Shown here in pieces: positions 10,906 through 18,501 of a stretch of 40,937 bases of DNA. The notes below the pieces were generated by a model. The model did no database searches. It had not been told where the DNA came from and saw only the letters and a program-made list of their open reading frames with translations. The DNA is taken from positions 1 to 40,937 of the forward strand of contig NZ_JDFG01000013.1 in assembly GCF_000565075.1 (NCBI RefSeq). The letters are read 5' to 3'. Positions within the stretch are counted from its first letter, which is position 1, and each line of letters starts with the position of its first letter. The stretch is from Atopobium sp. BS2 (GTDB lineage Bacteria > Actinomycetota > Coriobacteriia > Coriobacteriales > Atopobiaceae). The translations under genes were made by a program, and so were the position numbers.

Positions 10906-11649
10906 TTGCCAAAGAGCAAGATAATCAAAGCCGTAGTCGATGACGAAGTTAGCCTCAAGCAATCGTTAACTCGTTTACAGGTAATTGCGCATGACGTTAG
11001 AAATAGTGAACTTGAAAAGTGGACCGAGAATGAGCTCGTAGGCTATCCGTCAGAAGACAGCGTGCCAGAGTATCGTCGCGTTAAAAGTGTTAACTTCATT
11101 TATTCAGGTATTAACAACTACACACTCAAGGTGGACAAGGCGCCTCTTGATCCTTCCTTTCTGGGTACGGAAATACTTGATCAGGTGACCAATGTTCGAT
11201 TTGATCAAAGCATCTCAGCTCTTGAGAGTTTTCTGGGGGACACGTCTTCAGTCATTTACCTCGATAGATCGATACTTGCAGCCAAGGTGCAAGAGCGGTC
11301 TGATGGTGGCTTACAATGTTTTTCCATCAAGCAAGTTATCCCAATAGCCTTCTTTCAAAATGCAATTGCTGAAGTAAAGAATCGTGTCCTGAAATCGCTT
11401 CTTCTGCTGGAGGAAGAATACGGCAACCTTGATGATCTCGGCGTTGATATCAGTAGCCAATCATCGACAAAGATTAACTACGTGAACTATAAGATCAATA
11501 GTGATGTTCTCCATATTCAAGTGGACCCACCTACCGAAGTCGATGAGCCAGTTTCGCGCAAGATTGCCTGGAATATCATCGTTCCCATTATTGTCGGCAT
11601 CATTTGCGCCGTTGCGGGGTCAGTGGCTACCAAGCTCTTGGGGGCATAG
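10906..11649 (+). CDS. AbiTii-domain protein with C-terminal TM helix
   Basis: A 247-residue protein. I choose the TTG at 10906 because AGGAGG lies 9 nt upstream and the residues before it are IS256 transposase debris. The N-terminal about 110 residues match the AbiTii domain: SLKQSLTRLQVIAHDV, then LEKWTENELVGYPSED and VPEYRRV, with the family's W...EL.GY...PEYR pattern. The C-terminus has one predicted transmembrane helix (AWNIIVPIIVGIICAVAGSV). AbiTii proteins are linked to phage abortive infection, though the mechanism is not established. It is flanked by IS and phage remnants, a defence-island setting. No partner gene is evident. Confidence 0.72.
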   Translation: MPKSKIIKAVVDDEVSLKQSLTRLQVIAHDVRNSELEKWTENELVGYPSEDSVPEYRRVKSVNFIYSGINNYTLKVDKAPLDPSFLGTEILDQVTNVRFDQSISALESFLGDTSSVIYLDRSILAAKVQERSDGGLQCFSIKQVIPIAFFQNAIAEVKNRVLKSLLLLEEEYGNLDDLGVDISSQSSTKINYVNYKINSDVLHIQVDPPTEVDEPVSRKIAWNIIVPIIVGIICAVAGSVATKLLGA

Positions 11650-11774
11650 TCTAAATCCAACCCACAATATTAGCATCACCATACTTTCTGAAAGGCTTTT
11701 TATATGGATACACCCAATAAAATCCTCGGCGAACAGAGAACTTCAGCGTAGAGGATTGGTGAAGAGAGTATCCG

Positions 11775-12059
11775 ATGGACTATCACAAGGCTATCGAGTC
11801 ACTGACGTTCGTCTCAAACAAAGACGAGATCCTTCTCAACGTCTTTGGTATCCGCAAACTGCATGTTCCGGATACTTTAGATAAATACCATGGGCTCGGC
11901 CCCAATGAATCGTTCAACAAGAAGAAGCTGGAAACCCTTGATAGTTCTCGCGTGTATATGGCTACGGTTGCATCCCTAAGTCTGTTCGATTGTCGTGCCT
12001 ACTACAGGGTAGATGCCATCATTGAACGTTTCGGCTCGGAACCTGCCTCCACGAAGTAG
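11775..12059 (+). CDS. Hypothetical protein, 94 aa
   Basis: A small ORF with the ATG at 11775, preceded by a modest GAAGAGAG RBS. The sequence (ALVxNKDEILLNVFGI type start, a central FNKKKLETLD, and a C-terminal FDCRAYYRVDAIIERF) looks like genuine protein by composition, but I do not recognise the family. It may be a remnant of a larger protein, as it sits between the AbiTii gene and a prophage scrap. Confidence 0.45.
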   Translation: MDYHKAIESLTFVSNKDEILLNVFGIRKLHVPDTLDKYHGLGPNESFNKKKLETLDSSRVYMATVASLSLFDCRAYYRVDAIIERFGSEPASTK

Positions 12060-12840: not shown

Positions 12841-12897
12841 TGTCGAATCACGTCACAAAGTCGCGCATCAAGAGTGTCATGGCTGGTTGTTGCGGCA

Positions 12898-15558
12898 ATG
12901 TTTCAGGTAAAATTAGAAGCTAATGAATTGGAGCCAAGGGAGACAGAGGTCATACATTTGGAAGAACAGAAGCAAAGCCTTGAATCCGTCATCGACCAGT
13001 GGATCAAGAAACAACCCAGCTGGTATTCGGCAGCACTTCATATTGTCCTTCAGGGTGCTTTTACTGATAGGCAGGTTGAAGCTCTCGCGGCTGCAGCTTG
13101 CAAAGAATCAGGTATCGACCTCGGCATCCAGGGCAATGTTCAGCTTGTGGATTATCAGTCGGCCGATCTTGGAGGTGAAAGCTCTTCCCAACGTGTGGTT
13201 TTGCTTGAGTCCGTTACGGCAGAAAGCGGAATCAACGCAATTGAGCCAGGATCCAAGCTCAATCTAGGAACATCTGGCATTACTGTCATTTATGGCAATA
13301 ACGGTTCGGGCAAGTCGGGGTTTAGCCGAATCTTGCGTAACGCCTGCACCTCACGTTCAGGCTCGTCAGAAATCCTGTCGAACGTTTTTGAAGACAACGG
13401 TTTACCATCTGCTGCCTTCGATGTGAACATCGATGGCACTTCCATGTCATTTGCGTGGAAAGATGGCGATTCGTCCTATCCGGCATTCCCAGAGGTTGCG
13501 TTCTTCGACGCTGCTTGCGCAGCAATAGAGGTCGGCAACAAGGACAACGCAATGCTCTACATGCCTGGTGTGATCTCGTCGCTTATGCGTATGACTGATC
13601 TAATCTCTGCAGTTGCCGCACAGTTGCAGACACGTGAGAGCGAATTGACCGAATCTCTCAATATGGGGCTGGTACCTTTCGAACTGCGCAGGCTATCCAG
13701 AGTAGAGACGCTTCTATCATGCGCATTAGAAAACGAAGCGATAAGGCTCGTAAATGCAGCATTGCTAAGCCCGCAGGATGAATCGAGACGTAGAGCGCTT
13801 CCCAAGCTCATAGACTCAGACCCGGACGTTGAGGTTCCGAAGGTCGAACGGCGTCGCTCCCAACTTGCGGCAATGCGGCAAAGACTGGTCGACCTTTACA
13901 AATGTTGTCAGCCGAAGTTCTCCGGGGAATACGAGTCGGCTCAGGATGCTGTAAGGAAAGCCACCGAGGCTGCCAAAGCGGCAACTGTCCTCGCAAGTGA
14001 TAACTCAGAGCTAAACGGCTTTGGCAGTGATGCGTGGAAGTCGCTTTGGGAAGCCGCACGACTGTATTCCGATAGCCTTGCTTATACCGACGTCGCGTTC
14101 CCGAAATTGCAGGAAGACTCGCTATGCCCGCTTTGCCAACAGCCACTAGGAGAAGCGGCTCTTTCCCGTATGCGCTGCTTTGAGGATTATGTTACTGGCG
14201 TTGCCGAGAAGAACCTTACCGAAAAACGCAAGCTATTGGGTTCCCTGACAAATCGCTTCGTCAGTGCGGTCGATGCCGTCAAATCAGATAAGGCCGGAAT
14301 TAGCGTTCTGGCCACAGACCAAGCGAGATCCAGCATGGATTCACTCGTATCCGAGCTTGAATCGATCGCGACTGCCCCGGACCCAAACGCACTCATAAAG
14401 CTTTCGGGCTTAATAGAGCTTGCAGGCACGCAAGTGAAGGGCGAACTCGACGGACTCGACCAACGCCTGGAATCTTTAAGAGCGAACCAGCAGCCTGGTA
14501 ACGCAAACAAGCTGAAGGCGGAACTCGAAGAGCTCAATGGTCGCGCATGGATCTCCGACAACAAAGACATCTTGATAGCGGATGCAAAGAAGCGAGAGCA
14601 GCGTAATGCCATCGAATCTGTTCGAAAGAAATGCAGTACACGACAGGTCAGCACGCTCGTCTCGGAGGCTTCACAGGTTGAGGTTGTGGAACGTGTGCAA
14701 GCGGCGTTTGTAGACGAGCTCGACAAGCTTAAAGCATCAGGCCAGCAAGTCGCCATCTCGACCCGCGTACGGGCAGGTCAGGAATACCAGCGCATTGCTC
14801 TAGAAGGAACAGTTGCGTCTCCAAGGAACGTGCTCAGCGAAGGGGAGCAAAAGATTGTGGCCTTGGCTGGTTTCTTCGCACTCGTAGACGTGATGCCGGG
14901 TGATTCCTCGGTCGTTCTCGATGATCCTATTACCTCGCTAGATCATAGATGGCGCAAAGCGGTCGCCGCTAGGATTGTAGAAGCGGCAAAGTCGCACCCG
15001 GTAATCGTATTTACGCACGAGCCCGTGTTCTGCGTCGAGATTTCCGAACTTTCGGCACAGAGTGAAGTTCCAGTCACATATCGAACCGTCCAGAGGCGAG
15101 GGGCCATTGCTGGCGTTGTATTGAATGAGTTAGATTGGGATGCTAGTAACGTCAAACAGCGCGTAAAACTGCTCAGGAACAAAGCTACTGACATCGGACG
15201 CCGTTACAAGGGTGGCGAGATCAAGACTGACGCTGAATTGGGCAGAAAGGTGCGCGATTGCTATAGCGACTTGCGCACAACATGGGAGAGAGCAGTTGAG
15301 TCCGTTTTGCTGAATGGTGTTGTTAAGAGGTTTGAAAGACCAGTACACACGAAGCCACTGAGGCGGCTTTCCGACATAACGGACGACGACATCAGAATCG
15401 TTGAGGAAAACATGACTAAGTGTTCATTGCTCACCAACGCACACGACGATCCGCCCGCCCCACCAGATGAACTCCCAACGATCCAAGAGTTCGAGGCCGA
15501 TGTTGACGTGCTCGAGAACTGGCGTAAAGCCATTGAGATGCGACGTAAAAAATCGTGA
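12898..15558 (+). CDS. AAA_13 (PrrC/RloC-like) ATPase with zinc hook
   Basis: An 886-residue SMC/RecF-like ATPase from the ATG at 12898; no start has a good RBS, and a GTG at 12874 or TTG near 12957 are alternatives. Walker A GNNGSGKS is at about 133-140, then a long coiled-coil middle with CPLC at 410-413 (zinc-hook type). The signature LSEGEQK is near 647, Walker B VVLDDP near 675, SLDH D-loop and FTHE switch. The AAA_13 family includes the anticodon nuclease PrrC, and RloC also carries a zinc hook. The C-terminus has R793-x3-E797 (LRTTWERA) and H849 (NAHDD), which could match the Arg-Glu-His nuclease triad. That is my inference. No restriction-modification genes are adjacent. Likely phage defence. 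Confidence 0.75.
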   Translation: MFQVKLEANELEPRETEVIHLEEQKQSLESVIDQWIKKQPSWYSAALHIVLQGAFTDRQVEALAAAACKESGIDLGIQGNVQLVDYQSADLGGESSSQRVVLLESVTAESGINAIEPGSKLNLGTSGITVIYGNNGSGKSGFSRILRNACTSRSGSSEILSNVFEDNGLPSAAFDVNIDGTSMSFAWKDGDSSYPAFPEVAFFDAACAAIEVGNKDNAMLYMPGVISSLMRMTDLISAVAAQLQTRESELTESLNMGLVPFELRRLSRVETLLSCALENEAIRLVNAALLSPQDESRRRALPKLIDSDPDVEVPKVERRRSQLAAMRQRLVDLYKCCQPKFSGEYESAQDAVRKATEAAKAATVLASDNSELNGFGSDAWKSLWEAARLYSDSLAYTDVAFPKLQEDSLCPLCQQPLGEAALSRMRCFEDYVTGVAEKNLTEKRKLLGSLTNRFVSAVDAVKSDKAGISVLATDQARSSMDSLVSELESIATAPDPNALIKLSGLIELAGTQVKGELDGLDQRLESLRANQQPGNANKLKAELEELNGRAWISDNKDILIADAKKREQRNAIESVRKKCSTRQVSTLVSEASQVEVVERVQAAFVDELDKLKASGQQVAISTRVRAGQEYQRIALEGTVASPRNVLSEGEQKIVALAGFFALVDVMPGDSSVVLDDPITSLDHRWRKAVAARIVEAAKSHPVIVFTHEPVFCVEISELSAQSEVPVTYRTVQRRGAIAGVVLNELDWDASNVKQRVKLLRNKATDIGRRYKGGEIKTDAELGRKVRDCYSDLRTTWERAVESVLLNGVVKRFERPVHTKPLRRLSDITDDDIRIVEENMTKCSLLTNAHDDPPAPPDELPTIQEFEADVDVLENWRKAIEMRRKKS

Positions 15559-16154: not shown

Positions 16155-16956
16155 TTAAAAAGTATTGTAATGGAGCTTCGATCCCTCGAGGCCGAGAAGA
16201 GCTGCCCGCCCATGGGGCAAGAACAGACCGTCGGTGGTGTCCAGGATCTCGACTCTCTCGTAGTCCATGGCGCGTAGTCTGTCCGCAAAGGCGTATATAT
16301 CGCCATAGCGCCTAGGTGTCATGAGGTCATGGATGGCAAACGTCCCGCCCTTCTTAAGGGTTCGCAGCGTCTCAAGGATGAGTGCCTGCTTGTCCGCTCC
16401 GACTATATTGTGGTAGACGTAATTGCTTGTTACCACGTCGAAGGTCTCGTCTTCGAACGGTAAAGCGGTGGCATCTCCCTTCTGGAACACTACATTGTCC
16501 ACGCCTTCTGTCTGGGCGTTATCCTCACACAGCTGCAGATTGTACGATACATACTCTTTGCCCCAACGATCAACCCCGACCATAGAGCCTTTGTGGGCTG
16601 CGCTTAGCACAGGCAATTGTGAGTGCCCCGCTCCCGCATCCCACGTCGAGCCCCACGCCGCCCTCGGGCAACTCGACATAGCCGGCAATGCCCTCCACCA
16701 CCTTGCGTGATATCTGACGTGAGTCGTTATAGGAGAACGAGCTGTAAAGGTAACCCACCCAACAAGTGATGGCCAACAGTACCAAGGATACGATTCCAAA
16801 AGTCACAGCGAGGACAGCCTTGAGTGTTTTAGCGGTACCTACACCTGCGATCCCGAAGAAGATCCAACACACAAGGGTGGCTGCCGTTCCTACAATCAGA
16901 CCATAGAGCATTCCCTTTGGTATTCAGTTTTTGTAATCAGGTCGCATCGATTTCAT
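16155..16956 (-). pseudogene. Membrane-anchored class I SAM methyltransferase, dead
   Basis: The true start is probably 16956, with a perfect GGAGG RBS and the family-like N-terminus MKSMRPDYKN. The next codon (16926-16924) is TGA, where homologues have Trp before VPKGM, and the frame then continues IPKGMLYGLIVGTAA. Two TM helices follow, then the SAM motif GLDVGCGSGALTIACA. Near 16595 a one-base shift separates CAKRSPQ from MVGVDRWGKEYVSYN. Motif II is FDVVTSNYVYHN, and the end HGRAALLGLEGSKLHY is at 16155. One nonsense and one frameshift mean it is inactive. The rest is well preserved, which suggests recent loss. Confidence 0.8.
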
Positions 16957-17111
16957 GTATTTCCTCCGTGCTATCAGTTAGAAACTACTATCAACCAGAA
17001 ATTTCAACTCAGAATGGTCGATAAGGACAAAGTCAATGATAATGACTGTGGAATGTATAGCATTTCCATTTCCACTCCTTGCAGAAATGTCATAGACGCT
17101 ACAAAGTATGA

Positions 17112-17190
17112 TATACTGCCATCAGTGGACCCGCCATGCCTCTCTCTTGACGAAAGTTAAGATGATGCAAACTTTGGCGGGTGTTTTTTA
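17112..17190 (+). ncRNA. AbiF-type structured RNA upstream of abiF
   Basis: After a TATACT/TATGAT -10 region (17107-17117), a compact RNA can be drawn. The closing stem is CCCGCCA (17130-17136) with TGGCGGG (17175-17181), followed by T6 (17184-17189), an intrinsic terminator. Inside it, CTTGAC (17146-17151) pairs with GTTAAG (17156-17161) under a GAAA tetraloop. CATCA (17120-17124), 5' of the closing stem, can pair with TGATG (17163-17167) inside it, giving a pseudoknot. As I recall, a conserved AbiF RNA motif has been described next to abiF genes by comparative genomics. The RBS and abiF start follow 11 nt after the T-run. Confidence 0.65.
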
Positions 17191-17200
17191 AGGAGAATAT

Positions 17201-18121
17201 ATGAAGTACCAAAAGCCATGGATCTCATTTGAGGAACAGGCCGATAGGCTAGCGAAGCGTGGACTCATCTTCAACAGAAGTGAGCTTATCTCTCACCTTA
17301 TAGATGTCGGATATTACCGGTTGAGTGGCTACTGGTACATTTTCAAGAAAAACTCGAAAAGCGGAGACGAGTCTTTTGTTGAAGACACGAACTTCGAAAG
17401 AGTTTGGGATCTATATACTTTTGACCGACAGTTAAGGCTTGTAGTTCTTGATGCAATAGAGCGCGTTGAGGTCTACACACGAACCCAGCTTGCCTACTGT
17501 TTGGGGAAGACCACAGGACCGTTTGGTTTCTTTGATAGAGCCACACTTCCCAACATGGAACAGGAAACTTACGGACATTTTCTTTCGAGATGTTTTGCCC
17601 AATACGCTAGGTCAAAGACACTGTTTATTGATCATTTCAAGAAAAAGTACGGAGATTCACATGGGCTTCCTCCATATTGGATACTCGTGAATATCATGGA
17701 CTTTGGTATGATGCTTACTTTATTTAGGGGCTCTCCAGACACTGTAAAAAATGATATCGCCAAGGAAATTGGCGTACCGGTGAAAGTCTTTGAGTCATGG
17801 CTTCTCATGCTCAACACCGTTCGTAACTCATGTGCGCATCATGATCGACTTTGGAATAAGCGACTTAATAACAAAACAAAGATCCCGCGAGGTAGCAAGT
17901 ATCTTGAGTGGCATAAACCTTACGAAGTCGATAACAGCTCTACGTTTACGCTCCTCACTATCCTTAGTTACTTGCTTGAGCGTATTGCCCCAGACACGTC
18001 TTGGCATGACAAGATTGTTCGGCTTATAGCAACACAGAGTGAAGAAGACCTTTATCGAATGGGTTTTAAGGATGGCTGGAAGTCCTGTCCTATATGGACG
18101 AAGTGGCTTTCCGAAGGGTAG
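17201..18121 (+). CDS. abiF: Abi family protein, AbiF/AbiD-like (Abi_2), HEPN
   Basis: A 306-residue protein starting MKYQKPWISFEEQADRLAKRG, the standard Abi_2 (PF07751) N-terminus, followed by LIDVGYYRLSGYWYIFKK. The motif RNSCAHHDRLWN near residues 208-219 contains R208-x4-H213, the RxxxxH signature of HEPN ribonucleases. AAGGAG lies 8 nt upstream of the ATG at 17201. AbiF and AbiD proteins abort phage infection in lactococci, and HEPN chemistry suggests RNA cleavage. The gene stands alone except for the structured RNA just upstream, which could be an antitoxin, a leader attenuator or a guide. All conserved parts are present, so it is probably functional. Confidence 0.85.
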   Translation: MKYQKPWISFEEQADRLAKRGLIFNRSELISHLIDVGYYRLSGYWYIFKKNSKSGDESFVEDTNFERVWDLYTFDRQLRLVVLDAIERVEVYTRTQLAYCLGKTTGPFGFFDRATLPNMEQETYGHFLSRCFAQYARSKTLFIDHFKKKYGDSHGLPPYWILVNIMDFGMMLTLFRGSPDTVKNDIAKEIGVPVKVFESWLLMLNTVRNSCAHHDRLWNKRLNNKTKIPRGSKYLEWHKPYEVDNSSTFTLLTILSYLLERIAPDTSWHDKIVRLIATQSEEDLYRMGFKDGWKSCPIWTKWLSEG

Positions 18122-18129
18122 TTCTGCTC

Positions 18130-18501
18130 CATATAAACTATCCCTCGCAATCTCATGCAGAAGCCGTGTCCAACGGCGACAAACCTCGGGGCAAGTTCCG
18201 ACAGGTCGGTCTTGAGCTTTTCGAGCGCTTCCGGTCGCTTGGCAACCTCGACTATCGTCTCTACCTCACGGTGGTGTTTAAAACCTATGCTGAGCACAGG
18301 GAGAATTTTCTCGTCATCCACAGACAAGGTCAGTCATGAATGCTGCGTGATGCCATTGAAGAGGCATTCGGCTTTTCTGAGATGGTGGCGCATGCGACTC
18401 AAGGACAGCAATTCAAGGTCTCATACCATATCGGCGGCATCTTCAACAACATGATGCTCTGGCTCGAGCACAACATGGAAGAGATACCTGAAGAGTGGTA
18501 A
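18130..18501 (+). pseudogene. TetR/AcrR regulator, C-terminal remnant
   Basis: ELFERFRSLGNLDYRLYLTV then VFKTYAEHRENFLVIHRQGQ reads like the ligand-binding half of a TetR regulator. An in-frame TGA at 18337-18339 is followed at once by MLRDAIEEAFGFSEM and NNMMLWLEHNMEEIPEEW, ending at 18501. The N-terminal HTH half is absent. It lies just after abiF and is a decayed fragment. An overlapping minus-strand frame here is a shadow. Confidence 0.6.

Follow-up and report, generated by a model that had tools for sequence, protein, structure and literature searches.

The window analysed here is a stretch of 40,937 nt from Atopobium sp. BS2 (contig NZ_JDFG01000013.1, positions 1 to 40,937 of the forward strand). 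It carries an abiF gene, with a structured RNA in the leader of the gene. The features of the locus, in the coordinates of the window, are:

17109–17117, + strand: extended −10 promoter element TG-A-TATACT, conserved in relatives' leaders
17124–17189, + strand: predicted transcript of the abiF-type antitoxin RNA (putative start placed from the −10 element, putative end from the U tract)
17130–17136, + strand: closing stem, 5′ arm, pairs with 17175–17181
17137–17139, + strand: inner stem, 5′ arm UGC, pairs with 17167–17169
17145–17162, + strand: apical hairpin of 7 bp with a GAAA loop, the extended part of the RNA, with two-sided changes in 12 leaders
17167–17169, + strand: inner stem, 3′ arm GCA, from the pairing and covariation tests
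17170–17174, + strand: single-stranded 3′ bulge, unpaired in the fold
17175–17181, + strand: closing stem, 3′ arm, pairs with 17130–17136
17184–17189, + strand: U6 tract (T6), putative leaky terminator, the T-rich tail being conserved after the stem
17190–17195, + strand: ribosome binding site AAGGAG, from the sequence
17201–18121, + strand: abiF gene, encoding a 306-aa Abi_2 HEPN protein in an uninterrupted ORF
17822–17839, + strand: HEPN catalytic motif R208-N-S-C-A-H213, from an alignment of 23 proteins

An intact HEPN abiF gene with an R208-x4-H213 motif had been described in an earlier note on this DNA, and this description holds. The ORF at 17201–18121 is uninterrupted, its 306-aa product matches Abi_2 (PF07751) at 4e-52 (177.6 bits, compared with a cut-off of 25.6), and R208, N209, C211 and H213 are invariant in 23/23 aligned proteins. 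The AAGGAG placed before the gene is likewise read at 17190–17195. Abi_2 alone was above the Pfam cut-off in the protein and no ToxN-like toxin was found there, while PADLOC assigned the protein to AbiD. One solved structure was significantly related by sequence, 8vz6_A (PbAbiF with its ncRNA), at E 2.9e-46 over a nearly full-length alignment. An AlphaFold2 model of AbiF (pLDDT 89.3) matched the same structure (TM 0.84/0.87, E 2.6e-17), with no other structure at E <= 0.001. By analogy with its homologues, AbiF is probably a toxin that cuts RNA. Masking of the ribosome binding site by the RNA was considered and rejected, since the site is predicted to be paired with codons just 3′ of it whether the RNA is present or absent.

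The G+C content is 0.43 over abiF (17000–17999) compared with 0.51–0.58 at distances of at least 1 kb on both sides, which fits acquisition by transfer. It is likewise low (0.45) at 11000–11999. An ORF of 894 aa at 12874–15558, with a PADLOC match to PDC-S06 at 1.2e-172 and a Pfam match to AAA_13, is a candidate defence gene near abiF.

A simple consensus scan of 16900–17300 showed neither a promoter nor a terminator; both were called from their conservation among leaders. Thirty-six distinct leaders were taken, and parsing recovered a GCCT core enclosed by a closing stem in 35 of them; the unparsed leader (L002) belongs to a second AbiF gene of the same genome. A TANNNT hexamer is situated 16–19 nt 5′ of the closing stem in 35/35 parsed leaders, compared with 117/2297 control anchors, and is preceded by TG in 28/35. 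In the window, this hexamer is at 17112–17117 and the usual spacing predicts a start at A17124. All 35 parsed leaders carry at least five T within 10 nt past the stem (mean 6.5, compared with 2.8 upstream), and the order of promoter, RNA, T-rich tail and gene is the same in 35/36 relatives' leaders. The T6 run that had been seen after the closing stem is at 17184–17189, so that the RNA precedes the toxin gene with the U tract between them.

The 54-nt element at 17129–17182 folds at −25.6 kcal/mol (z −6.49), and 0/200 shuffles were as good. Both of the nested helices proposed previously are borne out: the closing stem (17130–17136/17175–17181) is present in the letters, belongs to a fold that beats shuffles and covaries in relatives, and the CTTGAC-GAAA-GTTAAG hairpin is found at 17146–17161, extended by a U-A pair (17145/17162) and showing two-sided changes in close leaders. 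The nested fold also contains a small stem, UGC/GCA, which was absent from the earlier note's list.

Comparison with the Rfam covariance model for abiF RNA, which had been suggested as a check, gave a divided result. With cmscan at E up to 10, RF03085 (abiF) aligned end to end at the expected place (17130–17182), but at 23.8 bits against a gathering score of 37; at gathering scores no family was reported in the window. A single copy was found in 16900–18300, and a single copy genome-wide (E 0.05). With E-values allowed up to this loose limit of 10, RF03085 also matches in 6/14 control genomes, and with a score below the cut-off, the Rfam match alone is weak. The window RNA is a relative of RF03085 and not a member by the gathering-score rule. 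Its position, core letters and covariation agree with an abiF RNA in the leader of the gene, as had been proposed. Before the second AbiF gene of this genome, whose product is 28% identical, there is an analogous stem-loop (L002 1338–1393) made of other letters and unmatched by RF03085. A third Abi_2 gene (L003) has no RF03085 match; the contig of this gene carries an azaaromatic (yjdF) riboswitch at 716–818 (60 bits).

Covariation was examined in a close set of 12 leaders with an extended apical hairpin, including the near-copies L014/L021 and L068/L069, and in a wider set of 24 cores. In the close set the closing stem is unchanging in 7/7 pairs, and is therefore silent on covariation there, while the inner stem is paired in 83.3% of cells and the apical hairpin shows two-sided changes in 4/7 pairs. 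Over all helices of the close set, 94.5% of cells are paired, compared with at most 44.7% when slid. The covariation of 0.189 was as high in 0/500 shuffles; the numbers of pairs with two-sided changes (4; 27/500 shuffles as high) and of pair types (10; 93/500) did not go beyond shuffles. In the wider cores, two-sided changes occur in 5/6 pairs of the closing stem, and the variable inner-stem pair takes four standard types and is unpaired in 8/24. Covariation in this set was 0.225 (0/500 shuffles as high), with pair types not beyond shuffles (174/500). Rows L068 and L069 of alignments A2 and A6 were misaligned by one position at the inner stem, and a one-position register error affected the closing stem of eight rows of A4 (L047, L050–L054, L059, L071); all were kept, which lowered the pair counts. 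Of the three helices for which covariation had been sought, the closing stem and the apical hairpin show it, and CATCA/TGATG does no better than shuffles; compensatory changes are seen in the small inner stem as well. In the aligned sequences, the bulge, the GCCT and the inner stem's second GC look near-fixed, whereas the apex seems to accommodate insertions.

The extended apical hairpin is a new feature, common to 12 Coriobacteriia leaders, the window's among them. The motif is 48–52 nt long in these leaders, compared with 34–41 nt, with one extra T, in 21 cores listed from Rfam hits. When seven of the extended leaders were submitted to cmscan, RF03085 was matched in five at 23.7–25.9 bits and two were unmatched; two further ones scored 27.8 bits, and no listed extended leader reaches 37, the shortfall being explained by the longer apex. 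Eight loci in named contigs encode close relatives of the protein, all from Coriobacteriia by title except one labelled Actinomycetes, and protein relatives are present in 41/396 genomes of the class (E <= 1e-30) and 18/140 of the family (E <= 1e-100). A protein tree of 34 rows included 10 of the 12 extended carriers (L015 and L069 were left out), and these ten form one clade (support 92/99), corresponding to one change compared with a shuffled mean of 8.9. Shorter apical hairpins occur elsewhere (L023/L031, L035, L056). The model R1 had matches in 21/395 genomes of the order, some of them strong and with no Abi_2-like frame behind (L114, L101). Among 296 genomes drawn from the phylum, the extended RNA matched four: the window's own, two more within the order and one outside it (G543), the last being weak (33.1 bits). 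The pairing of AbiF with its RNA is thereby extended to a Coriobacteriia lineage with a longer RNA that falls under the Rfam cut-off, and the comparison separates the fixed parts of the abiF RNA from those free to vary. One extended RNA (L115 1501–1583) has a seemingly doubled apex and no Abi_2-like frame behind it.

We put the probability that the window locus is an AbiF-AbiFr type III-like toxin-antitoxin and abortive-infection module at about 85%. The locus is genuine, and is a lineage variant of a system already known. Anatomy, conservation, covariation and the predicted protein fold were observed at the locus itself, and all testable parts of the AbiF-AbiFr system are present, the Rfam score excepted. 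AbiF and the abiF RNA have been published as a type III-like toxin-antitoxin pair (PMC12373285, PMC12737573). In C. difficile (PMC12373285), the short RNA predominates among the transcripts and a readthrough transcript spans abiF; AbiF is toxic, requiring R202/H207, and is neutralised through direct binding by the RNA, both in cis and in trans. For PbAbiF, a review (PMC12737573) gives one RNA per monomer, with a single-stranded bulge that inhibits the RNase. Toxicity, RNA binding, neutralisation, readthrough and the structure of the complex would carry over to the window locus by analogy with these homologues.

The locus shares with RCd22-AbiF and PbAbiF-AbiFr an Abi_2 HEPN protein, the R-x4-H motif and an abiF RNA directly upstream on the same strand with a T-rich end. 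RCd22 of C. difficile has two copies of the motif (PMC12373285), whereas the window has one, and RCd22 has a separate terminator hairpin, whereas in the window the U tract comes after the closing stem of the motif itself. Typical abiF cores have a short loop in place of the 7-bp apical hairpin. The type III-like logic put forward for this leader also stands, with the RNA ahead of the toxin gene and the U tract between, and with readthrough known in C. difficile (PMC12373285). ToxIN similarly encodes an RNA antitoxin ahead of an RNase toxin. Unlike ToxIN, the window has a toxin of the HEPN family that is not ToxN-like, and an RNA without tandem repeats (one RF03085 match) and without a supported pseudoknot.

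We infer the following course of termination, binding and function at the window locus, and of its phage trigger. The extended −10 promoter would start an RNA of approximately 66 nt at A17124, which would fold into the closing stem, the small inner stem and the apical hairpin. The closing stem and U6 would stop most transcripts, and polymerases that read through would yield the abiF mRNA, so that leaky termination may set the RNA:protein ratio, as the earlier note proposed. AbiF would be a dimeric HEPN RNase, to which the RNA would bind via its fixed GCCU, AUGC-like and single-stranded bulge region, blocking cutting; by analogy, 17170–17174 may be the inhibitory bulge reported for PbAbiF. If the RNA were lost or outpaced, e.g., by a phage shutting down host transcription, AbiF would cut RNA and growth would stop.

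A pseudoknotted antitoxin had also been proposed, in which CATCA (17120–17124) pairs with TGATG (17163–17167) in the manner of ToxI. The five complementary letters are indeed in the window, and among 34 registers tried this one has the most paired cells (46/60 with G-U, or 76.7%), the runner-up having 43/60 and four sequences fully paired. A near-fixed pyrimidine-A at −1/+1 gives 23 of those 46 cells, and 46/500 shuffles had as many cells paired. The covariation of 0.336 is no higher than in shuffles (70/500 as high), and all five pairs, G-U allowed, are possible in only 2/12 leaders. In addition, four of the five CATCA bases are upstream of the predicted start at A17124, and the inner stem competes for base 17167. 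The pairing was therefore dropped, and we regard a ToxI-like pseudoknot at this locus as very unlikely.

The stem with a T-rich tail right before the gene, seen in 35/35 parsed leaders, would also suit a cis attenuator alone, i.e., a hairpin that serves as a regulated terminator limiting abiF transcription, the RNA having no role in trans; the C. difficile RNA additionally lowers abiF transcription in cis (PMC12373285). A terminator has no need of fixed loop letters or of a bulge, however, the C. difficile RNA acts in trans via protein binding according to the same study, and in phages the RNA occurs without a following abi gene (see below), making this explanation improbable. As to whether the RNA inhibits or guides AbiF, both of which the earlier note had allowed, inhibition by binding is known in the C. 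difficile homologue (PMC12373285), whereas a guide role found no support. AbiF is regarded as a relative of the Cas13 ancestor (PMC12737573, PMC12165695), and the RNA might by this kinship steer AbiF to a target as a crRNA does Cas13. Against this, the RNA has no long unpaired variable (spacer-like) stretch; most of its variation in the close set falls in the apex, which pairs with itself and changes in a compensatory way, and positions outside the helices hardly vary. Retention of the RNA by phages that lack the toxin is also easier to reconcile with an inhibitor than with a guide, and we consider a guide function extremely improbable. An antitoxin RNA that inhibits AbiF by binding is the reading retained.

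Such RNAs are also found on their own in bacteria. Among 30 RF03085 loci in the class, an Abi_2-like frame is present in the flank of 16 and absent from that of 14, although some flanks are truncated at the contig boundary and a remnant may survive in L048. The class-wide RF03085 search used strict filters that did not pick up the window RNA, and it therefore undercounts. The Abi_2 profile had been built from 34 proteins of the same loci, and the viral and genome tests were therefore repeated with Pfam. PF07751 was absent genome-wide in 13/23 genomes chosen for such RNAs, several of them incomplete, which argues that pairing with the protein is not obligatory. No Abi_2-like frame is present behind the abiF RNA at L045, L059, L061–L063, L067, L077, L081–L083, L101, L112 and L114, and the RNA of L077/L081 recurs at two loci where the toxin is present (L078/L079). 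A solitary 35-nt core is identical in four genomes of one genus and one of another genus; the flanks of these five loci, which were selected for that identity, are alike within the genus (about 0.7–1.0 per flank window) and unlike in the genome of the other genus.

Viral sequences carry the RNA as well. The exact core GCCTCTCAACGATGCNCA-(2-6)-GGCGGG occurs in 67 IMG/VR contigs (L117–L183), and 16/16 of those loci submitted to cmscan reach the RF03085 gathering score (44.6–61.3 bits). PF07751 was absent from 66/67 of the viral records (45/46 and 21/21), for which completeness was not given and many of which are fragments. Two RNA queries against GenBank phages gave 14 and 20 records, many of them weak. 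Ten complete GenBank phage records with the RNA or a look-alike (L184–L193, 0.04–0.24 Mb) had no PF07751 match (0/10), and eight reach the RF03085 gathering score, L189 and L192 being the exceptions. Four T7-like Aeromonas phages carry the RNA in a gap of 90–96 nt between the connector and scaffold genes:

L184, 2466–2561: Aeromonas phage RNA gap
L186, 2465–2560: Aeromonas phage RNA gap
L190, 2470–2559: Aeromonas phage RNA gap
L191, 2465–2560: Aeromonas phage RNA gap

The Aeromonas phage RNA directly follows CTGACTATAGGGATAACA, a sequence that we take to resemble a T7-type (phage-polymerase) promoter. Between PZL-Ah8 and T7-Ah, whose flanks are 91.6% alike, compensatory changes have altered both bases in two pairs of the closing stem. 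Four other phages have the same connector/scaffold gene pair and no RNA there. In the cyanophages S-CREM1 and S-SZBM1 the RNA is found among tRNA genes, and the abiF RNA of S-CREM1 was reported earlier, with a possible role in infection (PMC9964418, PMC12197685). The exact pattern of the extended RNA was found in none of the viral contigs, none of five viral stretches that fit a pattern for relatives of the protein encodes one, and a phage RNA query gave no match in E. coli genomes. In the single plasmid match, an Abi family gene starts 18 nt past the RNA.

The solitary phage copies are outside the window, and are the more novel lead and the part worth following. We give slightly better than even odds to the view that many unrelated phages acquired the abiF RNA, but not its toxin, as a counter-defence made of RNA: while infecting, a phage would transcribe its own copy, keep AbiF inhibited and thereby defeat abortive infection; phage-borne decoy antitoxins are perhaps the best reading of these copies. 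Phage phiTE reportedly carries such a decoy, pseudo-ToxI, a bacterial antitoxin RNA with no toxin; the abiF copies differ in the toxin family concerned and in being spread over many phages. Against a decoy role, loss of the toxin after capture could also leave solitary RNAs, solitary copies are kept by bacteria too, and to our knowledge nobody has demonstrated an encounter of these phages with AbiF. Such a role for the phage abiF RNA was not found in full-text literature searches, which is weak evidence as most subscription journals are outside their coverage. If the copies are decoys, phages use RNA to counter the protein family regarded as ancestral to Cas13, and the apical hairpins of abiF RNAs in bacteria, that of the window among them, may then reflect an arms race over which RNA AbiF accepts. 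Carrier phages can be grown in the laboratory, which would make phage escape from AbiF directly testable. One of the viral contigs with an abiF RNA (L129) also carries, at 66–140, a DUF3800-VIII RNA that scores above its own gathering score.
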